Shown one piece after another: positions 1,932 through 14,432 of a stretch of DNA of 64,000 nucleotides. The notes under the pieces are model-generated. The model saw only the letters and a list, made by a program, of their open reading frames with translations. It had not been told where the DNA came from and did not search any database. The position numbers and the translations under genes were made by a program. Every line of letters starts with the position of its first letter. The first letter of the stretch is position 1. The stretch spans positions 620,001 through 684,000 of the forward strand of contig NZ_LT607803.1 of NCBI RefSeq assembly GCF_900090195.1. Reading direction: 5' to 3'. Source of the DNA: Variovorax sp. HW608 (GTDB lineage: Bacteria > Pseudomonadota > Gammaproteobacteria > Burkholderiales > Burkholderiaceae_C).

Positions 1932-2384
1932 GTGCGGCAGTTGCCGGAGAAAATCGTGATCCGAATCGACGAATGGACTCCCCTCTTCCCCAATATTGGG
2001 GAGGTCTCTGCAAGGTTGCGGCGCGCCAGCGCGAACGAAGCATCAAACACATCGGACCTGATTGGGCGCATCTTCGACAGGCTTGCAAAGATGGGGCCGC
2101 CAGGCCCACCCGCAGCGGCCCAGCTCTTCTTGGACGAAGGTTTGCGCTGGATTCGCGTGGGGTTCAAAGGTGTCGGGCCTCTGGAGCCATTGAGCGTCGA
2201 AATTGTCGGGAAGGTCATCGCGTCTTGCGTGCCGCGAGGGGAAAAGCTGTACTTCCACGCATTGAGACCGTACGACCTGCTGTTCTTCCTTGAAGGCGGC
2301 GACGTCGATTCCATCGGCGCGCCCCCGAAGGACTATGGCATGCCACTGGCAGATGTCCTGACGGCCTGGCGAATCAAATCTTGA
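1932..2384 (+). CDS. hypothetical protein (150 aa, GTG start)
   Basis: A small frame divergent from the patatin-like gene and meeting the cyclase gene tail to tail with an 11-base overlap. The GTG at 1932 gives a protein starting V-R-Q-L-P-E-K-I-V-I-R-I-D-E-W with a balanced composition. Later stretches such as L-R-W-I-R-V-G-F-K-G-V-G and Y-F-H-A-L-R-P-Y-D-L-L-F-F-L look like a folded alpha/beta protein. The frame stays open further upstream, but that part lies over the patatin gene and reads as noise. No clear Shine-Dalgarno was seen. I do not recognise the family, and a chance open frame is possible. Confidence 0.45.
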   Translation: MRQLPEKIVIRIDEWTPLFPNIGEVSARLRRASANEASNTSDLIGRIFDRLAKMGPPGPPAAAQLFLDEGLRWIRVGFKGVGPLEPLSVEIVGKVIASCVPRGEKLYFHALRPYDLLFFLEGGDVDSIGAPPKDYGMPLADVLTAWRIKS

Positions 2385-5300
2385 GCATGGCGGCCGCGCC
2401 GTATTCACATCGCGGCAATTCGAAGCCGTGAATGCGCGCGAGTTCGGTGGCAGCCTGAAGCGCCTGGCTCGCACATTCAACGTGACCGGAGAGGTACAGG
2501 GCGTGCGACCAGATCAGCGTGCCGAACGCTTTCTCTGCATGCGCACCTCCTTGGTCATGCAAGTGAATCGCCTTGTCGAACAGGGCCTTCGCGGGTTCCG
2601 GATCTCCGCCCGCCTTGACGCTGGAGATCGCCTTGACGCGCCAAGCGATCGCCTCGGCAAAGTGACCGCCTATTCTCTTGGCCACCGCGATTGCCTCATC
2701 TGCAGCGGCATTGGCGCGCACATGATCCCCCCGAAAGCACGCAATCTCGGCTTCGATGGCTGGAAGGTAGTCAAGCAAGGACCACTCGCCGTCTGCGACC
2801 TTGACCAGCAACTGACGAGCCTCGGCAAGCGATGCGATCGCTTCATCGAAGCGGCTCGATCTGGCCAAGCAAAGCGCAAGGAAAACCAGGCCGTGCCACC
2901 CTAGATACGGCATCGAATGAAGTCGGCTGATTTCCACGCATTGCCTCGCATCAGAGACCGCTTCGTCGAGTCGACGGACAGACATGTACGCATGGCTGCG
3001 CCAGATGTAGGCGCCCCCCAGGTAGATCGGAGATTGGAAATGCTCGGCCTCCTGGACCGATCGATGGCCGAACCGGAGGCCATCATCGCCAGGGCCCATC
3101 TGGCAACAGGCATAGGAAATCCATCCCAGTCCCGAGATGTAGTCGATCAGGCTGCCAGCACTCTTGTATGCGTCGACATTGCCCTCGTGGATGAACTCCA
3201 GGGTCTCCCTGAACAGGCCTTGACAACAAAGGTTCATACTGTAGGCCGAACCCGGCTTCATTTCGACCAACTGCGATTTGACTTCGCGGCCAAGTCTCCT
3301 GATCTCCTCGAAGATTCGCCTGGCTTCGGAGTAGCGGCTCGAGTAGAGATGGGCACGTCCCTCCTGGAACAGGATGGCCGACATCGTTGCCGCGTCGCAC
3401 GTTGCTTCATCGGCCTGCGCCAACCTCCTTGCGAGTGCGCCCAGTTCCATGAGTTTTTTGGGAAGGATCGCGAAGCGCCCGACCTCCATCATGCCCAGAA
3501 TGATGTTGATGTGCCTCCTGGCGTTCTGTCTGGTCTGATCGAGCGTTGCAATGAGCGCCTGCGCGCGCGAAAAGTAGGACAGCGCCTCCGCGATGGCCAC
3601 CATCCGGGTCGATGCGAGACCCGCCTCGTACAGGTAATCGACCTCCTTGTCGGGGAGATTGGCCTCCTGGCAGTGATGCGCCATGAGGCCCGCCTCGTGG
3701 CGCGCGATCTCGGGATGAGAGGTCTCGATGACCTGCACGATCCGCGCATGCAGGGCCCGGCGATCGCTCTTGAGTTGCCCGTCGTAGGCCGCCTGCTGGA
3801 TCAGTGCGTGCTTGAAGAAGAATTCGGCCGCCGGAGGCACACCGCGGCGGTACAGCAATTGCGCCTCGACCAGGCGATCGAGGGCGGCCGTCAGTCGGCC
3901 TTGCGGGTTCCCGGAAACCTCGGCCAGCAGCGAGAATGTGAATTCCCGACCGAGAGCACTTGCGACGCGCGCAACTTCCTTCGCATCGCTCAATCGATCC
4001 AGTCTGGCCAGCAGGCTGTCACGCAGTGTTGACGGAATTTCCAGTTCGGGAACTGGGCCGTCCAGGACGAGGGCGTTACCTTCGCTTCTCAGGATGCCCG
4101 ACTCGAGCACTGTGGCCGTCAGTTCCTCGACGAACAGCGGAACGCCGTCCGTCTTGGACTGGATGAGTTCGACGATGACCGCGGGCAAGGTCTTGCCGTG
4201 GCACGTGCTGCGCATCAGCTTCTCCGCGTCTGCACGCTGCAGGGGCTCGAGACGAATGTCGGTCACGGGCTCTGCATGGCCCCAATCCTGTCTTTGTGGG
4301 GGACGCGAGGTCATCAATGCCATGAAGGGTCTGCGGCGCATGCGTTGAAACAAAATCTTCAGGAAGTCCACCGTTGCGCCATCCATCCAGTGGTAGTCCT
4401 CGATCATGAGTAGAACGACAGCGGATTCGCTGTGCCGCTCGAAGTACTGCAGCAGCACCTCTCTCGTCAGGTCTCGCTTTCGGTCTGGCGGCATCGGCGG
4501 TAGCGGTTCCGTACCCGAGACCGACGACCCCAGGAGCTCAGCCGTCAGGGCGAGATCAAGGGGAGTGGCTACGGCGCCGAGCCAGGTCGCAAGGTGCGTT
4601 CGATTGGCTTCACCATCGCTTCCGCTGATGCGGGCCTCCCGGCGGATCCATGAGACCAAGGGGTGCAAGGGTGTGGTGATCTGGTTCGGTGAGCACTGCA
4701 TGAGCACGGTCAATCCCGAGGATCGGCCAAACCGCTCGGATGCGGTTCGTAGAAGTCGGGATTTGCCGATGCCGGCTTCACCGAGGATCGTCGCGATGCT
4801 GCAGCGGCCACGCTGCGCTTCGCCCCAGCATTTCTGGAGGGCATTCAGTTCGGCTTCACGACCGACACACTCGTGGATCTCCGTCCTGTGCGCTTCGTAT
4901 CGAAGGCTGGAAAGCGATTCCCCCACGACCTTCCAAACGCGCACCGGCTTGTCCAGCCCCTTGAGTTGGTGCATCCCCATGTCGGCATAGACGAACACGC
5001 CGCCCGCGAGCCGCCTGGTGTCGTCAGCCACAACCATGCTGCCTGCCGTTGCCAACCCCTGGATGCGCGACGCAAGATTCGGAGCGAGCCCGGTGGCGGC
5101 ATGATGTCCGGCAAACCCACTGCCCACCATGTCACTGATCAGTGACATCCCGGTGGCAATTCCGATCCTCACGTTGACTTGGCTTGCTCCGATGAGGTGG
5201 GTCTTACCCCACGTCTCGAGGATCGTCAGGCCTGCGCGAATCGCGCACTCGGCCGCATCTTCTGATGCCGTTGGATAGCCGAAGTAGGCAAGGATCCCAT

Positions 5301-5706
5301 CGCCGACCAGTCTCGCAATGAAGCCGCCCGTCTCCTCGATGAGGCTGCAGCAGGAGGAGTAGTAGGCATGGATGAGGCTTCGCAGGTCATCGAGATCCAG
5401 CCGTGCCGACAATTCCGTCGAACCCACCAGGTCGCAGAACATCACAGTGATCTGGCGGCGTTCGCCGTGCTCGGCCGACTCGACGGGCGGGTCAGATGTC
5501 GGATCGCCGCCGGTTCCCTGGATCCGCCTCACAGCATCCAGCAGAATGCGACGGTGCCCCAGTGAGAGGCCCAGTTCCTTCAGATCCGCGTCGGACAGGC
5601 GTTTCAGGACATTGAACGTGACGTCGTTCTTCTCGAAGGTCCCAGCGTGCATGCCCAAGCCCAGCGAAGACAGCCACTCAGCGAGATCGTGGTCCTCAGA
5701 GGTCAC
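2374..5706 (-). CDS. SAM domain - class III adenylate/guanylate cyclase - AAA ATPase - TPR signalling protein
   Basis: A 1110-aa multidomain protein. Residues 5-62 form a SAM domain (A-E-W-L-S-S-L-G-L). Residues 85-260 are a class III nucleotide cyclase homology domain with the two metal-binding aspartates in M-F-C-D-L-V-G-S-T (Asp92) and R-L-V-G-D-G-I-L-A-Y-F (Asp136). A predicted AAA_16/NACHT-like ATPase follows, with Walker A G-E-A-G-I-G-K-S at 309-316 and a Walker B-like L-L-M-I-E-D-Y-H-W. The C-terminal third is helical and TPR-like. This architecture is common in soil proteobacteria and is thought to couple cNMP synthesis to protein-binding or ATPase signals; the product and trigger cannot be read here. 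The GTG start has GGAGGAG eight bases upstream. Monocistronic. Confidence 0.9.
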   Translation of the reverse strand: MTSEDHDLAEWLSSLGLGMHAGTFEKNDVTFNVLKRLSDADLKELGLSLGHRRILLDAVRRIQGTGGDPTSDPPVESAEHGERRQITVMFCDLVGSTELSARLDLDDLRSLIHAYYSSCCSLIEETGGFIARLVGDGILAYFGYPTASEDAAECAIRAGLTILETWGKTHLIGASQVNVRIGIATGMSLISDMVGSGFAGHHAATGLAPNLASRIQGLATAGSMVVADDTRRLAGGVFVYADMGMHQLKGLDKPVRVWKVVGESLSSLRYEAHRTEIHECVGREAELNALQKCWGEAQRGRCSIATILGEAGIGKSRLLRTASERFGRSSGLTVLMQCSPNQITTPLHPLVSWIRREARISGSDGEANRTHLATWLGAVATPLDLALTAELLGSSVSGTEPLPPMPPDRKRDLTREVLLQYFERHSESAVVLLMIEDYHWMDGATVDFLKILFQRMRRRPFMALMTSRPPQRQDWGHAEPVTDIRLEPLQRADAEKLMRSTCHGKTLPAVIVELIQSKTDGVPLFVEELTATVLESGILRSEGNALVLDGPVPELEIPSTLRDSLLARLDRLSDAKEVARVASALGREFTFSLLAEVSGNPQGRLTAALDRLVEAQLLYRRGVPPAAEFFFKHALIQQAAYDGQLKSDRRALHARIVQVIETSHPEIARHEAGLMAHHCQEANLPDKEVDYLYEAGLASTRMVAIAEALSYFSRAQALIATLDQTRQNARRHINIILGMMEVGRFAILPKKLMELGALARRLAQADEATCDAATMSAILFQEGRAHLYSSRYSEARRIFEEIRRLGREVKSQLVEMKPGSAYSMNLCCQGLFRETLEFIHEGNVDAYKSAGSLIDYISGLGWISYACCQMGPGDDGLRFGHRSVQEAEHFQSPIYLGGAYIWRSHAYMSVRRLDEAVSDARQCVEISRLHSMPYLGWHGLVFLALCLARSSRFDEAIASLAEARQLLVKVADGEWSLLDYLPAIEAEIACFRGDHVRANAAADEAIAVAKRIGGHFAEAIAWRVKAISSVKAGGDPEPAKALFDKAIHLHDQGGAHAEKAFGTLIWSHALYLSGHVECASQALQAATELARIHGFELPRCEYGAAAMLKI

Positions 5707-6028
5707 CGGCGAACTCCTCCGGCACCTGGGGCCTGGCTCGAAGGTGCCAACGGTATCGTTTTTAGCGTAGGCAGCCTGAAAATGTAGGACGTGGCGACGT
5801 GCAACGCAAGGTCCTCCGTGCGGTTGCAGTTGCCTCGGCGCTCTTGACCTCTATCTGGCGACTATCCAAATAGTGAAGAAAGATTCACCGAAATGTGGCG
5901 CCACCCCATGGCTGAAGTGAGAGGCTTGCACACCTAGGATCTTGGTCAATATGTCCAAAGCACGGGCGCGGTTCTACCGGCATGAGGCTAAGCTGCGGCG
6001 CAACATCTGCGCGACCAGGACGGCGACG

Positions 6029-7060
6029 ATGAAATGCCCCAGCATCCGGAACTTGAGCGCCGCGGTTGCCTTGGCCATAGTCAACTTCGTCCATCCGGCC
6101 GCCCATGCCGCCGACGCCCTCCCCACGCTTCACGCGAACCCGTCACGCACATCGGTGTCCGGCCTGTCGTCCGGCGCCTTTATGGCTGTCCAATACGCCG
6201 TTGCGTACTCGTCGAGTGTTGTTGGGCTGGGCGTGATCGCCGGCGGGCCCTACAACTGCGCATTCGTCAACATCGGTGGCGTCGTCACTTGTATGTCGGG
6301 CGAACCGTCCGGCAGCATGTCGTTGGCGGCGGCGGAGGGCTTCGCGTCGGTGGGGCAGATTGATCCGGTGGCCGGGCTGGCAAAGTTCAAGGTCTATGTG
6401 TTCGGTGGAACCAAGGACCGGTATGTGCACCCGCCCGTGGTTGCTGCAACCCGCGACTTCTTTCAAGCTGCGGGCGTGCCGCCGAGGCACCTGGCTTACG
6501 TGAACAAGATGCCTGCCGGCCATGCGTTCATCGCACCAGCTTTCGGCAATGCCTGCGGGACAAATGCGGCACCCTACATCGACCATTGCCCCGAAAACGG
6601 CAAGGGCAAGAACTACGACCAGCCGAAGGCGATCCTGGAGCAAATCTACGGCCCCCTGAATCCGCCGGCGGACACGCTCTCATCCATCGTCCAGCCGTTC
6701 GACCAGAGCGCGTTCGCCGGCGACGGCACGAGCATGGACTCGGTGGGCTTCGTCTACATCCCCAGGGAGTGCTCTGCCGATGCCAGCGGCTGCGCGGTGC
6801 ACGTCGTGTTCCACGGTTGCAGGCAGGGTGCGCAAAGCGTCGGCAGCGATGTCTACGCATCGGTCGGGTACAACCGCTGGGCGGATACCAACCGGTTGAT
6901 CATCCTGTACCCGCAGGCGGTGACAAGCCAGCCAATTCCAGCCAATCCCGAGGGCTGCTGGGATTGGTGGGGCTATACGGGGCCGACCTTCCAGGTGCAA
7001 AGCGGCGTGCAACTCTCGGCGGTCAAATCGATGGTCGATCGGTTGACGGCGCCAAAATGA
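6029..7060 (+). CDS. secreted PHB depolymerase-like esterase
   Basis: A 343-aa alpha/beta hydrolase with a Sec signal peptide, cleavage predicted after the A-H-A near residue 27. The lipase box G-L-S-S-G-A-F-M places the nucleophile at Ser47. Candidate acid and base are in F-G-G-T-K-D-R-Y-V-H-P and P-A-G-H-A-F, and the late V-F-H-G-C-R-Q resembles the oxyanion region of poly(3-hydroxybutyrate) depolymerases. The family degrades PHB or short oligomers outside the cell or in the periplasm. The ATG at 6029, with AGGA upstream, was chosen because earlier in-frame ATGs add a basic tail that would spoil the signal peptide. It stands alone, with the IS21-family element about 340 bases downstream. 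The substrate is inferred from family. Confidence 0.8.
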   Translation: MKCPSIRNLSAAVALAIVNFVHPAAHAADALPTLHANPSRTSVSGLSSGAFMAVQYAVAYSSSVVGLGVIAGGPYNCAFVNIGGVVTCMSGEPSGSMSLAAAEGFASVGQIDPVAGLAKFKVYVFGGTKDRYVHPPVVAATRDFFQAAGVPPRHLAYVNKMPAGHAFIAPAFGNACGTNAAPYIDHCPENGKGKNYDQPKAILEQIYGPLNPPADTLSSIVQPFDQSAFAGDGTSMDSVGFVYIPRECSADASGCAVHVVFHGCRQGAQSVGSDVYASVGYNRWADTNRLIILYPQAVTSQPIPANPEGCWDWWGYTGPTFQVQSGVQLSAVKSMVDRLTAPK

Positions 7061-7384: not shown

Positions 7385-7410
7385 TCAAGCCGGTGCAGCC
7401 CGAGTGCGTA

Positions 7411-7517
7411 TTTCGGCCAACGTGACCGATCATTTCGGTCATCGTGACCGACGCCGATGAGGGCGTCGGCAAATGTCGTTTCGGTATCGTGACCGCCCGT
7501 TTCGGCGATCGTGACCG
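7411..7517. repeat. left-end IS21 repeat array (4 units)
   Basis: Four copies of TTTCGG-N(1-3)-ATCGTGACCG or a close variant, at 7411-7428, 7433-7450, 7479-7495 and 7500-7517. They match, in inverted orientation, the six copies at the right end. Confidence 0.85.
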
Positions 7518-7577
7518 CCGGGCCGGCGGCGGGTACTGCGTAGGGGGTGAAGTGTAGGGTCGGGGCGTGGGGTCAGG

Positions 7578-8417
7578 TCAGGATTTGGCCTCCTGAGTTG
7601 TCTTTTTCGTCTTGCTTGCCACACCTGCGTTGCGTCCCGTGCGACGTGATTCGCCTTCGAGCGTGAAGCGCCGGCAGTGCTGCATCAAGCGGTCGAGGAT
7701 TGCGTCGGCCAAGGTCGGATCTCCCAGCCATGCGTGCCAGTGCTCAACGGGCAACTGGTGCGTGATGACCGTAGCTCGCTGCGCACTGCGGTCATCGATG
7801 ATCTCCAGCAGGTCGGCACGAGTGGATGCATCGATGGCACCCGTTCCCCAATCGTCCAGCACAAGGACGTCCACCTTGGCCAACTGCTGCAGCCAACGCC
7901 GGAAGCTGCCCGCGCCGTGCAGGATGCGCAGCTCCTCGGCCAGGCGCGGCACGCGCAGGTACAGCGCCGAGTACCCTTGGCGGCAGGCGTATTGCGCCAG
8001 GGCACACGCCAACCAGGTCTTCCCCAGGCCCGTGGCCCCGGCGAAGCAGACCGTCTCGCCGCGCTCGATCCACGTGGACAGCGCCAGACCCATCAACGTC
8101 GAGCGATCGATGCCGCGGATGCCCTCGAAGCTCGCGTCCTCCAGCGTCGCGGTCGTGTACTTCAGCTGGGCCCGCTGCAGCAGTCGGGTGCGCTTGCGGT
8201 CGTTGCGGGCATAGACCTCCCGCTCGACCAGCAGGGCCAGGCGTTCGTCGAAGGACAGGCCCAGGCAGTCGGCCTGCTCGTGCTGCTGTTGCAGCGCGTC
8301 GGCGAAGCCTTGGAGCTTGAGGGAGCGCAGTTGGGCGATGGTGGCGTTATTGAGCATGGGGATCAGCGTTGTTTGGTGGTTTACAGGCAGCGAAGGCGTC
8401 ATGGCGGGTTGCATCAT
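7578..8417 (-). CDS. istB: IstB-like ATPase, transposition helper
   Basis: A 279-aa AAA+ ATPase of the IstB/DnaC type that works with IstA in IS21 transposition. The Walker A region reads C-F-A-G-A-T-G-L-G-K-T-W-L-A and the Walker B region V-D-V-L-V-L-D-D-W-G-T. The N-terminal M-L-N-N-A-T-I-A-Q-L-R-S-L-K-L-Q-G-F matches the usual IstB opening. The chosen start (ATG at 8415-8417) overlaps the istA stop codon, suggesting translational coupling; the ATG at 8357 is an alternative and gives the more typical length. The gene looks intact, but its partner istA is split. Confidence 0.9.
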   Translation of the reverse strand: MMQPAMTPSLPVNHQTTLIPMLNNATIAQLRSLKLQGFADALQQQHEQADCLGLSFDERLALLVEREVYARNDRKRTRLLQRAQLKYTTATLEDASFEGIRGIDRSTLMGLALSTWIERGETVCFAGATGLGKTWLACALAQYACRQGYSALYLRVPRLAEELRILHGAGSFRRWLQQLAKVDVLVLDDWGTGAIDASTRADLLEIIDDRSAQRATVITHQLPVEHWHAWLGDPTLADAILDRLMQHCRRFTLEGESRRTGRNAGVASKTKKTTQEAKS

Positions 8418-9328
8418 TGGTAGTAGCCCGGGCCGCGCACGTTGGCGTGCGCCGGGCTGGTCCATTCGGCGGGCGCTTCCTGGGCGACGCGATCCCGGTT
8501 GTTGGCCAGCAGATCACGCACGTGTCTGTAGCGCACGGTCCCCAGCGCCAAGGCGCGCTCGCACGCCGCCTCCAGCCGTTCCTTGCCGTAGCGCCGCGAC
8601 AGACTCAGCAGCCCCAGGCAGGAGCGATAGCCGTGCTCCGGATGCTTGTAGGTCTGCAGAAGCCGGGTGATGAGTTCGCCGCAGGCCATGCCGATCTGCC
8701 GGCCCCACTCGATCAGGCGCTGGGGCGTCCATTGCAGCTGTGCCCGGTGCGCTGCGGGCATGTGTGCTTCGACCGTGGTGTAGCCGCCGCGCCGGTCGCT
8801 GCGGACATGGGCGGCCACCCGCTGGCCGCGCAGCAGCAGCTCCACGGCGTGCTTCGTCAGCCGTGCCTCCAGCGTCTGCCCCACCAGCGCGTGGGGCACG
8901 CTGTAGTGGTGGCCGTCCAGCTGGACGTGATAGTCAATGTGGACCTTCACCGTCTTGAAGCGGGCGAGTTCATAGCGCTGCGGCGGCAGCGGCATCAAGG
9001 CCGGCGCGTCCAGCTCGGCGAACACGCTGGCGCGGCTGCCGGGCAGCTTTTGGAACGGGCGCTCGTTCACGCTGGGCAGCAGCTTGGCGATGGCCGCGTC
9101 GACCTGGGCGACGGTGTCGAAGCGGTGGTGACGCAGCCGCGCCAGCACCCAGCGGCCGATGATTTGCACCGAACTTTCTGCGGAAGCTTTATCTTTTGGC
9201 GAACGCGGGCGCGCCGGTAAAACCGAGGTGCCGTAGTAGCGGGCGAAGTCCTGCACCGTGTCGTTTGCGCGCGGCTCGTAGCGATCGGCCGAGGCGATTA
9301 CGGCCGTGGCGTTGTCAGGCACGACGAG
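8414..9328 (-). pseudogene. istA: istA, 3' part (split by the RIT element)
   Basis: The C-terminal 304 residues of the IS21 transposase. They start L-V-V-P-D-N-A-T-A-V and continue through R-Y-E-P and L-P-A-R-P-R-S-P-K-D-K-A-S-A-E, which holds the last acidic residue of the DDE triad. The 5' part lies at 13239-13847. Joined, the parts give 507 codons in frame, the normal IstA size. As it stands the fragment could be read only through an ATG supplied by the end of the nested element, and it lacks the first catalytic Asp and the helix-turn-helix, so it should be inactive. Confidence 0.9.
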
Positions 9329-9329
9329 C

Positions 9330-9361
9330 GCCGGTAATCGTGAGGACCGTTTAATGCGAAG
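9330..9361 (+). repeat. RIT left terminal inverted repeat (32 bp)
   Basis: Starts GCCGGTAATCGTGAGGACCG and ends with TTTAATGCGAAG. It is the exact reverse complement of 13186-13217. Confidence 0.9.
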
Positions 9362-9446
9362 CAGAGTCACCCCCACTGCGGCACCACTCTGAACACCCCT
9401 TCCATCAGAAGGTCACCTGCTCGTCATTTGGCGGTTTCGTCTATGC

Positions 9447-9474
9447 CCTTGATCGGGATGCATCCCGATCAAGG
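9447..9474 (+). promoter_or_regulatory. 28-bp perfect palindrome covering the ribosome site of the first recombinase
   Basis: Half-site CCTTGATCGGGATG followed directly by its complement CATCCCGATCAAGG. The right arm contains the AAGG of the AAGGAG Shine-Dalgarno (9471-9476) that serves the ATG at 9484. As RNA this would fold into a 14-bp stem hiding the ribosome site; as DNA it is a classic operator. Either way it is well placed to limit recombinase production. Confidence 0.7.
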
Positions 9475-9483
9475 AGACACGCC

Positions 9484-10752
9484 ATGTTTGACCGCGTTTC
9501 GCCACAGCATGCTGCGCTGCTGAGGCAACTTAAGCACCAACTCGTTGACACCGGTTACAGCTCAGGCGCGATCCGACGCCAATGCGCCGTCGCTGCGAAC
9601 TTCCTTCGCTACCTCGAGCGGCGCAAGCTCGCTGTCGCAGATCTGCAGCCGCTGCACGAGGAGCAGTACCTGCGCTGCGAGCAACGACGATTCCAGCGAC
9701 GCCACGGACACGCGCCGCGGTCTATGGGAAGCTGGCGCGGCTCGCACAGCGCAGGCATCCACCAACTGATGCGGATGGTCATGGGCCGATGGCCGCCTGA
9801 GCCCTCGCCAGGCAATGAATTCGAGGCATTTGCCCACTCGCTTTGTGATGAGTTCGCTCAGTGGCTCGAGCAGGACAGGGGGATGGCCGCCGAGACCATT
9901 GACGACCTGGTCGCCGAGGCGCGGCGGTTCATGTGCTGGCGTCACGGCCAACAGTCGTTGGCCGACGAGCTGCGTTCGCTGAGCACCGCTGACATCGACG
10001 CGTACCAGCAGGCGCGGGCGCCTTCGTTGCGGCGCGTCTCACGCAAGTCGCTGGCCCAGCGGTTGCGCAGCTTTCTGCGCTTCCTGCACGCCAGTGGTAG
10101 AACGCCCGACGAGCTGGCCAGCCGCGTGTTGGCGCCGACACTCTACGCGCTGGAGTCGATCCCTTCGGCGCTATCGGTGCAGCAGATCAACGACGTCGTG
10201 CGGATCTGCCGCGCCGACCGCTCGCCGACAGGGCTGCGCGACCACGCCATCGTATTGCTGCTCGCTAATTATGGGCTGCGTGCCGGGGAGATCGTTCGGC
10301 TGCGGCTGGAAGACATCGACTGGCGAGGCGATCAACTGTTCGTGCGGCATTCCAAGACCGGCGCGCAATCGGTGCTGCCGCTGCTGCCGGCGGTCGGATC
10401 CGCGCTGCTCGCCTATCTGCGCCACGGTCGGCCCGCAACAGGTGCTCGCGAGATCTTCATTCGCGCACGTGCACCCTATCGGCGCTTTGCCAGCGGATCC
10501 AGTCTGTACGCGCAGCTCCAACGACGGCTCAACGCCGCCGGCGTGCAAACCGACGGCAAGCGGGGTCCTCATGCCTTCCGGCACGCGCGCGCGGTCAGCC
10601 TGCTGCGCAGTGGAGTCCCACCGAAGGTCATTGGCGATGTGCTGGGACATCGATCCGCAGCATCGACAGCGCCGTATCTGAAGCTCGCTGTGGACGAGTT
10701 GCGCGATGTGGCTCTGGAGATCGATGAACTCATTGGGGAGGGCGCGCGATGA
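9484..10752 (+). CDS. tyrosine recombinase, first of the RIT trio
   Basis: A 422-aa phage-integrase family recombinase. The C-terminal catalytic domain shows Arg I in Y-G-L-R-A-G-E-I-V-R-L, the Lys in H-S-K-T-G-A, the H-x-x-R box in G-P-H-A-F-R-H, a late His in L-G-H-R-S-A-A-S-T and the nucleophilic Tyr in A-P-Y-L-K-L. The N-terminal part is the usual SAM-like DNA-binding region. The start is fixed by AAGGAG seven bases upstream. Its TGA overlaps the ATG of the second recombinase, implying coupled translation. All catalytic residues are present, so it appears functional. Confidence 0.9.
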   Translation: MFDRVSPQHAALLRQLKHQLVDTGYSSGAIRRQCAVAANFLRYLERRKLAVADLQPLHEEQYLRCEQRRFQRRHGHAPRSMGSWRGSHSAGIHQLMRMVMGRWPPEPSPGNEFEAFAHSLCDEFAQWLEQDRGMAAETIDDLVAEARRFMCWRHGQQSLADELRSLSTADIDAYQQARAPSLRRVSRKSLAQRLRSFLRFLHASGRTPDELASRVLAPTLYALESIPSALSVQQINDVVRICRADRSPTGLRDHAIVLLLANYGLRAGEIVRLRLEDIDWRGDQLFVRHSKTGAQSVLPLLPAVGSALLAYLRHGRPATGAREIFIRARAPYRRFASGSSLYAQLQRRLNAAGVQTDGKRGPHAFRHARAVSLLRSGVPPKVIGDVLGHRSAASTAPYLKLAVDELRDVALEIDELIGEGAR

Positions 10753-12116
10753 ACACCTGGCCTGACGACGACTCTGCGATCGAGCGGCATCTGAAGCACC
10801 TGAAGCTGCGCAGCCGCGACACAGTAGCGGTCTACCGGTGCGTGCTACGCGGGTTTCAGCGCTTCGTGCGCGAGCGTGACGACCCGAGCGTCGGCATCGC
10901 GACGCTGCAGGCCTGGCTGCGCGATCGTACGGCGCACTGGCAGTCATATCTGGTGCTGCATAGGGCGCGCATCGTCGATCGCTTCCTCGACTTCCTGCAG
11001 TCCGAAGCGGCGATCCCGATCAACCCCCTTGCCCAGCTGCGCGAGCGCTACGCTCAACGATGGAGCACCCCGGTCGTGCGTGCGCTGTTTGCGGCCGATC
11101 CACACGGCACGCTCGAAGCCCTGCGCCCGCCGCCACGGTTCGCCAGCTTTCTGGGCGACATGCTGCGCCGGCACGTCGAGCTGATGCGCGCCATCGGCTA
11201 CCGCTATGAGACGCAGTCGGCGCGCCTGCTGCGTTTCGATCGCTTCCTGCAAGGCCGCCCGGAGCTCGCCGGCCAACCGCCGAAGGTGCTGCTGCAGCAG
11301 TGGGCGGCACAGAGCCGGACGCTGAACGACGCCTGGGAGTGCGAACAGACGGCGCGCACAGTCGCGCGCGCCTGGCGACGACTCGATCCGACCATCGATC
11401 TGCCTCCGCCGGATCGGCGGCTCAAGCGTTGCGCCAAGCAGCAACAGCGCCGCCCCTACATCTACTCCCCGCAGGAGCTACGCCTATTGCTCGACACCGC
11501 GGGAAGCTTTCCGTCCCCGTGCGCACCCCTGCGCCCGCACGCGCTTCACACCATGCTCGTGCTCGCTGGCTGCGCCGGGCTGCGGCTGGGCGAACTCGCG
11601 CGCCTCGATCTGCGCGACGTCGACTTGGACGCCGGTCTACTCGAAGTGCGCGAGACGAAGTTCTTCAAGTCCCGAGTGCTGCCGCTCAGCGGCAGCGTGA
11701 TGGCCGTCTTGCGCGAGTATCTCGACGCCCGGCGCCGGGCCGGCGCACCGCAGGACGGCAGCAGCGGCCTGTTCTGGCATCAGCAGGCCGCGGGCCGCTA
11801 CTCGCGAGTGATGATCGAGAAGCTACTTGTCCGGGTTCTTCGGCGAGCCGGGCTCAAGCCGGATCGGGGCAGGTGCGGACCCCGCATCCACGATCTTCGT
11901 CACGTATTCGTCGTCTATCGCATGCTGGCGTGGTATCGACAGGGCATTTATCCGCAGGCGCGGCTGCCGTACCTGGCGACCTATCTCGGCCACAAGGACA
12001 TCCATTCGACGCTGGTGTACCTGACGGTGACTCAAGAGCTTCTGCAACTGGCCAGCGAGCGGTTCCGGCAACTGGCACTGCGCAAGCTGCACGCCACGAC
12101 GGGAGCAGCGCGATGA
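10749..12116 (+). CDS. tyrosine recombinase, second of the RIT trio
   Basis: A 455-aa recombinase starting inside the stop of its upstream neighbour (ATGA). Catalytic residues are visible in L-A-G-C-A-G-L-R-L-G-E-L-A-R-L (Arg I), R-I-H-D-L-R-H-V-F (H-x-x-R box), Y-L-G-H-K-D-I-H-S-T (His) and L-V-Y-L (Tyr). It has a longer N-terminal region than the third protein. In RIT elements the three proteins are thought to act together, but the division of labour is unknown. Its TGA overlaps the ATG of the third gene. Confidence 0.9.
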   Translation: MNTWPDDDSAIERHLKHLKLRSRDTVAVYRCVLRGFQRFVRERDDPSVGIATLQAWLRDRTAHWQSYLVLHRARIVDRFLDFLQSEAAIPINPLAQLRERYAQRWSTPVVRALFAADPHGTLEALRPPPRFASFLGDMLRRHVELMRAIGYRYETQSARLLRFDRFLQGRPELAGQPPKVLLQQWAAQSRTLNDAWECEQTARTVARAWRRLDPTIDLPPPDRRLKRCAKQQQRRPYIYSPQELRLLLDTAGSFPSPCAPLRPHALHTMLVLAGCAGLRLGELARLDLRDVDLDAGLLEVRETKFFKSRVLPLSGSVMAVLREYLDARRRAGAPQDGSSGLFWHQQAAGRYSRVMIEKLLVRVLRRAGLKPDRGRCGPRIHDLRHVFVVYRMLAWYRQGIYPQARLPYLATYLGHKDIHSTLVYLTVTQELLQLASERFRQLALRKLHATTGAAR

Positions 12117-13114
12117 AGCCGGTCGATCCGTTCCCTGCATTGCTGCACGCCTTCTTCTATGAGCGGCTGGTCCAACAGCGCAACGCCTCCGTGCACACGA
12201 TACGCTCGTACCGCGACGCGTGGCGACTGTTCCTGCGCTTCGTCGCCGCGCACCGACACTGCCGCGTCACCGACCTCACTCTGCCGGCGCTGAGCGCCGG
12301 CGAAGTGGCTGCATTCTTGCAGTACAGCGAGTGCGATCGGAAGGTGTCGATCGGCACGCGCAACTGCCGGCTCGCGGCGCTACACAGCTTCTTCGCCTTT
12401 GTCGCCGAGCGCGAGCCTGCGGCCGTCGCGCAGTGCGCCGAGGTGCTGCGAATCCCCACCAAGAAGGCACCCAGGCCAGCCCACCGGGACCTCGAGCTGC
12501 ACGAGATCGAGGCGATCCTGGCGCAGCCCGACCGTGGCCGACTGGAGGGTCAACGCGACCACGCGTTGCTATGGTTCCTCTACAACACTGGTGCACGTAT
12601 TCAGGAGGCACTCGATGTCCGTGTCGCCGATGTTCGCTTCGATACACCACGTTGCGTTCGCCTGTTCGGCAAGGGCCGCAAGGAACGCATTTGTCCGCTG
12701 TGGCCGGAGACGGTCGACTTGCTCTCAGCACTGCTCGAGCGCCAGCCACGCACCGGTGATGAACTACTGTTCGTCAACCGCTACGGGGCACCTCTGGGCG
12801 CATCAGGCGTGCGGTTCAAGCTCGCGCAGTACGTCCGTGCCGCCACCCAAGTGATGCCAACGCTGGCATTGAAGAAGGTTTCGCCGCACGCGTTTCGGCA
12901 CGCTGCCGCGGTTCATCTACTCGCCGCTGGAGTCGATGTCGCCGTAATCCGCAGCTGGTTGGGCCATGCGAGCCTTGAGACCACCTATCACTACGCCCAA
13001 GCCAACCTGGACACCAAGCGCGAAGCACTGGAGCGGCTGCAGCCACCACCGACCAAGAAGTCTGCGCCTTGGCGACGCGATGCCAGCCTGCTCGCCTGGC
13101 TGGAATCGCTCTGA
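12113..13114 (+). CDS. tyrosine recombinase, third of the RIT trio
   Basis: A 333-aa XerC/D-like recombinase, the shortest of the three. The N-terminal SAM-like domain opens H-T-I-R-S-Y-R-D-A-W-R-L-F-L-R-F. Catalytic motifs are N-T-G-A-R-I-Q-E-A-L (Arg I), F-G-K-G-R-K-E-R (Lys), S-P-H-A-F-R-H-A-A-A (H-x-x-R), W-L-G-H-A-S-L-E-T-T-Y-H-Y (His and Tyr). Coupled to the second gene by an ATGA overlap. The gene ends about 70 bases before the right terminal repeat. Confidence 0.9.
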   Translation: MKPVDPFPALLHAFFYERLVQQRNASVHTIRSYRDAWRLFLRFVAAHRHCRVTDLTLPALSAGEVAAFLQYSECDRKVSIGTRNCRLAALHSFFAFVAEREPAAVAQCAEVLRIPTKKAPRPAHRDLELHEIEAILAQPDRGRLEGQRDHALLWFLYNTGARIQEALDVRVADVRFDTPRCVRLFGKGRKERICPLWPETVDLLSALLERQPRTGDELLFVNRYGAPLGASGVRFKLAQYVRAATQVMPTLALKKVSPHAFRHAAAVHLLAAGVDVAVIRSWLGHASLETTYHYAQANLDTKREALERLQPPPTKKSAPWRRDASLLAWLESL

Positions 13115-13129
13115 CTGCGTGCAGCCACC

Positions 13130-13194
13130 AATGCGAAGGAACTGTCCGTCTTGGGCGTGTTCGGATCCAGGGACCACATCAGTTCCTTCGCATT
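13130..13194 (+). repeat. 15-bp inverted repeat overlapping the RIT right end
   Basis: AATGCGAAGGAACTG at 13130-13144 and its exact complement at 13180-13194, separated by 35 bases. The right arm overlaps the inner part of the terminal repeat, so the right end carries an extra inverted copy of the ATGCGAAG recognition core. It could also act as a transcription stop after the third recombinase gene. Confidence 0.7.
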
Positions 13195-13217
13195 AAACGG
13201 TCCTCACGATTACCGGC
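13186..13217 (-). repeat. RIT right terminal inverted repeat (32 bp)
   Basis: Exact reverse complement of 9330-9361. Confidence 0.9.
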
Positions 13218-13244
13218 GAAATCAGTAGCTGCTGATTTCGCCGG
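13213..13244. repeat. near-perfect palindrome at the RIT right junction
   Basis: Arms CCGGCGAAATCAG and CTGATTTCGCCGG flank six bases. The left arm overlaps the last bases of the right terminal repeat; the right arm runs into istA sequence. No equivalent exists at the left junction, making the element ends asymmetric. Confidence 0.8.
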
Positions 13245-13847
13245 CACGCCGCCGTAAAAATGCAGTGCCCGCACCATGCCCTCGATCCAGTCGTCCAGGC
13301 GTTGCGTGGGCGTCGCGCAGGCGAACACGCAGCTGGAGGCGGCCATGGCCGAGACGAAGACCTGGGCGCGGGCGCCGTCGCTCAGCGCCACCGTGGAGCC
13401 GGCGTAGTCGATGAACATCTTCTCCCCAGCGCGCCGGTGCTGGCGCATCGAGCGCTTGAGCGTGGCGGCGAAGGCCTTGTAGTGCTCGCAGAACTGCGTG
13501 TAGCGCCAGGTGCGGCCCTGCGGATTCGCCTCCACGTATTCCTGCCACAGCAGCATCAGCGTGACGCCCTTGCGGTCGAGTTCGCGGTGGATGCGGCCCC
13601 AGTCGGGAACGACGACGGGCGAAGCGGCTTGCGAGCGGGGTTGCAGTGCCGTCGAGAGGTGCTGTTCGCCCCAGTGCTGGACGGTGTCCCAGTCGAGGCC
13701 GGCGGCGGTGGCCAGTCCGACGTACTTGGCCACGACGCCCTTGGAGATCTTCAACGTGGCGGCGACTTGCTCGTGCGAGAGCTGCGCGTGCCACTTCAGG
13801 CGGAGAACATCTTTGATCATGCGTAGAGAGAGTTGTTGCTTGGGCAT
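13239..13847 (-). pseudogene. istA: istA, 5' part (split by the RIT element)
   Basis: The first 203 codons of the IS21 transposase. Visible features are an N-terminal helix-turn-helix (L-S-H-E-Q-V-A-A-T-L-K-I-S-K-G-V-V), the first catalytic Asp in M-F-I-D-Y-A-G-S-T-V, and R-A-L-H-F-Y-G-G-V-P-A just before the insertion point. After the break the frame continues about 20 codons into the RIT element before a stop. The remaining 304 codons are at 8414-9328. Confidence 0.9.
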
Positions 13848-13953
13848 CCGCGGCTCGAGGGCAAAAACCGTCGAGGGTAGGAGGCCCGGGGTTGCGTTCT
13901 CTACGCAGCACTGCCGGTGGGACCAGCGCCCTTGTTATGGGGCGCCGTCACGG

Positions 13954-14085
13954 CGGTCACGATCGCCGAAATGGCCGGTCACGATCCCGAAACGGTCGGT
14001 CACGATGAGCCGAAATGCAGGTTCGGTCACGATGACCGAAATGCGCGGTCACGATGCCGAAATCGGCGGTCACGATGAACCGAAA
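13954..14085. repeat. right-end IS21 repeat array (6 units)
   Basis: Six copies of CGGTCACGAT-N(1-4)-CCGAAA, the inverted counterparts of the left-end units. Confidence 0.85.
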
Positions 14086-14091
14086 TACGCA

Positions 14092-14432
14092 GCCTGCTCA
14101 ACGGCCGCAAGGCGACTACGCACTGGTTCGTGTACGACGCAATCGAGAAGAACTTCCCAGAGATCGAACTCGTACGTGACGCCCGGGTGGTGATCGACGG
14201 CAACGTGTTCACCAGCGGTGGCGTCACTGCTGGCATCGAACTGGGCATCAGGCTCCTCGAGGAAGCGAAGGGAAGCCGAGTGGCCGCGACCACCGAGCTT
14301 GCCATGTGCTACGACCCCCAGCCGCCCTTTGGAACCGGCAGCCCGAGCAAGGCGGGTCCCGACCTGCTCAAAGCGGCCATCAAGTATGCGGAGAAGATTG
14401 GCACGGAAAAGCTGTGGCTGGCCGCCGCCTGA
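14092..14432 (+). pseudogene. 5'-truncated DJ-1/PfpI family protein
   Basis: Coding sequence starts abruptly at the right IS end with L-L-N-G-R-K-A-T-T-H-W and continues D-A-R-V-V-I-D-G-N-V-F-T-S-G-G-V-T-A-G-I-E-L. This is the C-terminal half of a DJ-1/PfpI (isonitrile-hydratase-like) domain. The N-terminal half with the nucleophilic Cys is missing. A GTG at 14130 could in principle start a 100-aa product, but it would lack the active site. Confidence 0.8.

Follow-up and report, generated by a model that had tools for sequence, protein, structure and literature searches.

We analysed a stretch of 64,000 nucleotides from Variovorax sp. HW608 (GCF_900090195.1, contig NZ_LT607803.1, positions 620,001-684,000), hereafter the window; the full assembly is one contig of 7.73 Mb. 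The region at 9329-13244 of the window is supported as a recombinase in trio (RIT) element, an element of a known kind, nested in the istA gene of an IS21-family element. The original prediction of a RIT element in this gene is upheld by the genes, by the repeats that bound them and by the IstA protein obtained when the flanking halves are joined. The features of the RIT and its host are, in window coordinates:

7405-14091, minus strand: IS21-family element that contains the RIT and runs from TGCGTATTTCGG to CCGAAATACGCA; its halves come from different IS21 insertions
7578-8465, minus strand: istB, helper ATPase, with an IstB_IS21 match and a match above the NCBIfam cut-off; longest frame, the true start may be further in
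8414-9328, minus strand: istA 3' part, 304 codons and stop
9329-9334: 6-bp spacer CGCCGG at the left end, direct repeat of 13239-13244
9335-9361, plus strand: left inverted repeat, 27 bp without and 33 bp with the spacer, starting TAATCGTGAGG
9484-10752, plus strand: ritA, tyrosine recombinase, 422 aa (open reading frame, Pfam Phage_integrase match)
10749-12116, plus strand: ritB, tyrosine recombinase, 455 aa (open reading frame, Pfam Phage_integrase match)
12113-13114, plus strand: ritC, tyrosine recombinase, 333 aa (open reading frame, Pfam Phage_integrase match)
13186-13218, minus strand: right inverted repeat, including the 6-bp spacer CCGGCG (13213-13218)
13219-13238: PAL, a 20-bp near-palindrome, AAATCAGTAGCTGCTGATTT, asymmetric at 13226 and 13231 only
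13239-13244: second direct copy of CGCCGG, the opening bases of the istA 5' part
13239-13847, minus strand: istA 5' part, 203 codons

The three recombinase genes and their ATGA overlaps (ritA/ritB and ritB/ritC) are as originally predicted. Alignments of eight sequences per protein show invariant Arg, HxxR, His and Tyr residues in RitA, RitB and RitC, which we take to be the catalytic residues of tyrosine recombinases. Identity to the product of the gene in the same place in seven plasmid RITs is 45-50% for RitA, 48-56% for RitB and 64-70% for RitC. The profile search gave no match of the ritABC proteins to a RIT-specific model. The space between the inverted repeats is filled by ritABC alone, with no accessory genes (Tfp/Srap, GinB/GinD, TnpC).

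At 33 bp each, the inverted repeats 9329-9361 and 13186-13218 are 100% complementary, far beyond chance, and are made up of the 27-bp repeat plus the 6-bp spacer. They had been described as perfect, which they are, and as 32 bp long, a figure that has to be corrected to 33 bp including the spacer. PAL, which went unreported in the prediction, is placed between the right inverted repeat and the 5' part of istA and belongs to one end of the RIT. Published RITs end in inverted repeats some 28-34 bp long that a palindrome overlaps, and the 33-bp repeats and PAL correspond to this structure.

Removal of 9329-13238 joins the 203 and 304 codons in frame into an IstA of 507 aa with no internal stop, as foreseen, and removal of 9335-13244 gives the same product. 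Because CGCCGG stands at both 9329-9334 and 13239-13244, the RIT ends are ambiguous within 6 bp. Against the IS21 transposase model, which has 294 positions, the istA pieces match at 1-180 and 178-294. The junction reads FYGGVP/ALVVPDN (the slash marks the insertion point); the Asp of VPDN is a catalytic residue.

Uninterrupted relatives had been expected to have an istA equal to the joined sequence, and none of four intact plasmid istA genes is gapped against the joined IstA within 130 residues of the junction. These are from Burkholderia aenigmatica (507 aa, 328 identical), Cupriavidus oxalaticus (505 aa, 328 identical), Variovorax sp. SRS16 (508 aa, 313 identical) and Polaromonas sp. H8N (507 aa, 307 identical). 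We sought an uninterrupted copy of this same IS21 in the HW608 assembly and found none, istA being interrupted in 4/4 copies. A diverged uninterrupted istA does occur in the assembly at ~468 kb (467.5-468.7 kb, locus L013); its open frame of 527 aa is identical at 255 of 515 aligned positions, and the insertion site reads GGVPRLIVPDQ. The host belongs to the IS21 family by its istA, istB, repeated terminal motifs and outer duplications of 5-6 bp, which come to light only once the halves of different copies are matched, and differs in the interruption of istA in each of the four copies.

The four RITs in four IS21 copies are A (the window; contig span near 629-634 kb), B (2.83 Mb; near 2.828-2.834 Mb), C (0.22 Mb; near 220-225 kb) and D (3.62 Mb; near 3.615-3.622 Mb). 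The original prediction had named the same block with different ends as evidence that would count against it; the other three copies share the inner ends, and the inner 3824 bp of the RIT are identical across A, B, C and D. Relative to the window, the left arm of B differs at 19 positions, that of D at 28 plus two Ns (18 in common with B), and that of C at three, with two further differences in PAL. The right arms of B, C and D show 0 differences, for D over the readable 944 bp. In A and B the RIT is flanked by one 5' and one 3' half of istA; in C both flanks are 5' halves, and in D both are 3' halves.

An outer-flank duplication of at least 3 bp is found in exactly 3 of 12 pairings of these halves: CCGAG is shared by A-left and C-right, GCCTGC by B-left and A-right, and GGAAAC by D-left and C-left. 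A DJ-1/PfpI gene interrupted by IS21 also discriminates between pairings. Its parts lie at 14094-14432 of the window (A-right) and at 656-955 of locus L029 (B-left), 2.2 Mb apart, and the DJ-1/PfpI profile match stops at position 112 in one part and begins at 112 in the other. Open frames across the re-paired flanks were tried for the same purpose and did not separate right from wrong pairings, as the duplications and the DJ-1/PfpI gene did. Judged by these flanks, none of the four copies has its two original ends together; D-right runs into exactly 100 Ns, and the remaining pair, D-right and B-right, is therefore assigned by elimination only.

In one copy, now split between D-left and C-left, the RIT occupies the same point of istA but faces the other way, and PAL bases 13226 and 13231, its only asymmetric ones, are reversed along with the genes. 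Because PAL sits outside the repeats, its reversal fits re-insertion, which would have occurred via a mirror-image site, and not a flip in place. Inversion of a segment that lies between inverted sites is a known activity of tyrosine recombinases, and perfect 33-bp inverted repeats do bound the genes, yet inversion between them would leave PAL as it was. Either two additional changes that happen to match or a crossover beyond the repeats would then be required, and we regard in-place inversion as very unlikely. The reading as re-insertion draws on junctions that each lie in a single stretch and is independent of whether the halves have really been swapped. PAL likewise keeps its reading relative to ritABC in other genomes with oppositely oriented copies: in Sphingobium sp. 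DEHP117 it reads alike in L086, L091, L093 and L095 and in the opposite-oriented L096, and in Mesorhizobium sediminum it reads alike in L120 and in the opposite-oriented L123 and L134.

We consider it probable (roughly 70%) that the RIT inserted into istA site-specifically, via a circle with a pair of mirror-image crossover sites in its joint. The recombinases would excise the RIT as a circle with the joint inverted repeat (IR) - 6 bp - PAL - 6 bp - IR. Each half of this joint (IR end, 6-bp spacer, PAL half) would form a full crossover site, and the circle could integrate through either. The target would supply a 6-bp spacer, here CGCCGG at GGVP/ALVVPDN of istA, and exchange across it would put PAL next to the 5' part of the target and the IR next to the 3' part. 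With this polarity of exchange, PAL would always come to lie on the 5' side of the target, whereas the rit genes could point in either direction. The ends, the 6-bp repeat, the use of one site in both orientations, the reading of PAL relative to ritABC and the side of PAL in relatives can all be read from the DNA; from these we infer the circle, the chemistry and the assignment of proteins to half-sites. For RIT mobility the identical copies and the reversed insertion at the same site are indirect evidence. Insertion of the proposed kind also agrees with a RIT without differences in four copies while two IS21 left arms diverge from that of the window at 19 and 28 read bases, and with the invariance of the residues taken to be catalytic.

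The ends of related elements are built in a way that agrees with such a joint. Among 61 distinct IR ends, the first ten bases follow the pattern T, A or T, ATC, three variable bases and AG, and in 60 of them another AAT site follows at offset 17. The 35 distinct PAL halves read NNAT, four variable bases, A and mostly G. A short motif is common to IR ends and PAL halves, and a circle joint would thus hold, on each side, an IR site, the 6-bp spacer and a PAL half.

The relatives came from a scan of one genome per species, which gave 150 RitC relatives, and the best 80 of the 150 were used. An IR pair was found in 58 of these 80 loci (57 by search, and L062 placed by hand) and in 14 of 16 loci from plasmid records, 13 of which have exactly one PAL, adjoining the 5' half, and one (L235) no PAL. 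The original prediction had called defined ends and a defined target rare for this class, which these numbers show to be too strong. The common layout is target - 6 bp - IR - ritABC - IR - 6 bp - PAL - 6 bp - target, or its mirror image. Flank motifs and annotated neighbours define four classes of target: istA (at the same place), an IS110-type transposase gene, an ardC-like/zincin-like metallopeptidase gene and a strawberry-notch gene.

Typing of the 142 flanks of 71 loci placed PAL on 41/41 flanks typed as 5' and on 0/44 typed as 3', whichever way the rit genes point. These counts are raised by shared descent and by near-duplicates that were kept (L086/L091; L237/L238), and the motifs used for typing were drawn up with the flanks already in view and later loosened. 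Another 36 flanks were too short, and 21 were untyped (9 with PAL and 12 without). Where a locus has one flank of each kind, rit runs with the target in 15/31 cases and against it in 16/31, and both orientations occur in every class. The flank counts leave out the 22 of 80 loci without an IR pair, the plasmid loci L230 and L236, the four HW608 copies, and L107, which has a spurious motif match in its right flank.

An alternative history, in which the RIT entered IS21 once, transposition of IS21 then multiplied the IS21::RIT composite by means of a transposase acting in trans, and the RIT has not been mobile recently, would account for four composites with identical RITs and for the different outer duplications of three of them; the diverged istA at ~468 kb could in principle have helped. 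We find this history unlikely: the RIT is reversed in one copy, the IS21 arms have accumulated the differences counted above around RITs that have none, and relatives are inserted into several unrelated genes.

Several observations bear on site-specific insertion through a circle, most of them against it. The target-side spacers are identical in the window copy and in only 6/31 ordinary related loci; the exchange is therefore not simply homologous. No simple spacer rule emerged, the three identities tested giving 6/31, 7/31 and 7/31. In DEHP117, L086, L093 and L095 have two spacers in common and differ in the third, as if two spacers travel with the element. In the frame of the target the PAL centre reads GG in 17 elements, CC in 7 and the symmetric GC in 22 (loci L073-L245). 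The simple model does not explain this lean, which slightly lowers our confidence in it; asymmetric PALs may favour one insertion orientation. The joint pattern was absent from the 13 genomes or records searched, which gave no circle or tandem joint, and the assembly itself could be responsible for part of the identity among the four RIT copies. Separately, a single match to the joint pattern in viral contigs was rejected as unrelated: by its genes the contig is a phage, and it is without the recombinase trio.

No near match to this RIT was found among 72,556 plasmid records. Of 399 genomes of the family, 88 have a match at E of at most 0.001; outside the HW608 genome only those in G261 and G398 are long (~70% identity), the others among the matches listed being short.

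Parts of this picture are already in print. Published RITs, in the account consulted (Van Houdt et al., 2012; PMC3414803), resemble the present element in having three overlapping recombinase genes, a length of ~3.5-3.9 kb, terminal repeats of 28-29 bp with an overlapping palindrome, and identical copies in one genome. The same account reports a Tn6049-like transposon whose transposase gene contains a RIT, and the presence of a RIT inside some transposase gene is thus not new here. It presents mobility as still to be shown and the repeats with their palindrome as the only convincing result, gives no target rule, and calls the sharing of four-strand cutting among three recombinases hard to understand. 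A 2023 table (PMC10214605) has RIT movement, empty site and target specificity as not tested, and a 2021 survey places RitA, RitB and RitC each in a subgroup of its own. Relative to the RITs of PMC3414803, the 6-bp spacer, the side of PAL and a reversed insertion are resolved in this element. Our analysis adds these three observations, the target classes and the swapped IS21 halves, and the comparative evidence on how this class of element is built and inserts is unusually clean. The model of the ends may be less new, since Ricker et al. (2013, Plasmid), the main paper on RITs, and Van Houdt et al. (2009) may already describe parts of the end structure or of the target preference.

Other elements with cooperating tyrosine recombinases offer partial parallels. 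Strand-biased circularizing elements (SE; PMC10214605) and GInts (PMC5385486), going by the descriptions in those sources, are likewise equipped with several tyrosine recombinases or proteins related to these, leave footprints of 6 bp, are specific in their targets and end in imperfect inverted repeats; they differ in their set of four conserved genes, of which two or three resemble recombinases, where this element has only ritABC, and the relevant sections of PMC10214605 describe no internal PAL for them. Tn554-type transposons (TnpA, TnpB, TnpC), in the accounts consulted, also combine cooperating tyrosine recombinases with a 6-bp footprint, but have two recombinases and TnpC in place of three recombinases. 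The fixed side of PAL, its reversal together with the genes and the 6-bp spacer make RIT movement, its targets and the sharing of four-strand cutting a matter that a laboratory strain could test at base level.

Read back through the re-paired halves, the copies imply three circles, which would correspond to 224-629 kb, 633-2829 kb and the rest of the contig. The 633-2829 kb segment has a Rep_3 gene and a ParA-type gene at 1.65 Mb, near which the sampled GC skew (60 samples) turns from negative (7/7, 0.9-1.5 Mb) to positive (4/4, 1.6-1.9 Mb) and is mixed beyond. ParA-type genes lie at 0.36 and 0.61 Mb in the 224-629 kb segment, and the remaining segment has dnaA at 631 and a ParA-type gene at 39 kb; the ParA-type calls are matches to AAA_31, a broad family with 12 matches overall, some of them elsewhere. 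On this evidence copy A in the window would join two former replicons, and the four copies would join the apparent three.

Real fusion and mis-assembly are indistinguishable here, with mis-assembly made somewhat likelier by the 100-N gap. We lean toward the view that the swapped halves and the hybrids C and D are assembly mis-joins at a near-identical repeat of 6.7 kb, which concerns the layout and not the insertion of the RIT. The gap, exactly 100 Ns, is typical of scaffolding and raised our confidence in this view; two single Ns in the D arm, the DJ-1/PfpI halves 2.2 Mb apart, the retention of original end pairs in 0/4 copies and the three implied circles agree with it. On the other side, real fusions between repeat copies are well known, and copies with the same half on both sides occur elsewhere, in 5 of 36 fully typed loci: L082 has two 5' halves and two PALs, and L117, L122, L131 and L235, the last on a circular plasmid recorded as complete, have two 3' halves and no PAL. 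L081 and L071, which are not fully typed, resemble such hybrids by eye, and the halves of hybrid loci often come from different genes. Hybrids such as C and D would be the expected product of recombination, or of a false join, between oppositely oriented RITs.

As a tentative generalization, which we hold possible and no more, RITs may be circles that integrate two ways, their mirror-image sites sharing one palindrome. Six half-sites would serve the three recombinases (two per IR end and one PAL half per side), the target alone would fix the side of PAL, and the elements would home to conserved coding sites of mobile-DNA genes, where identical copies in opposite orientations would then drive replicon fusions and inversions. 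The nesting in mobile-DNA genes and the joining of apparent replicons bear on both genome reshaping and assembly failure.

Two further repeats lie within the RIT:

9447-9474: 28-bp perfect palindrome, matching its own complement, ~10 bp upstream of ritA
13130-13194: 15-bp inverted repeat (13130-13144 / 13180-13194; loop of 35 bp) that follows ritC

The palindrome is a possible operator. The right arm of the second repeat overlaps the right inverted repeat, and the inner motif of the terminal repeat is common to both.

Searches of the 64-kb window for tRNA and Rfam families found none. To the left of the IS21 element, 2374-5706 (minus strand) encodes a protein of 1110 aa with SAM, nucleotide cyclase, AAA and TPR domains, which is TOMM kinase/cyclase-like and scores below the cut-off of that model. 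The gene at 5942-7060 (plus strand) encodes an extracellular type 2 short-chain polyhydroxyalkanoate depolymerase, with a match above the NCBIfam cut-off.

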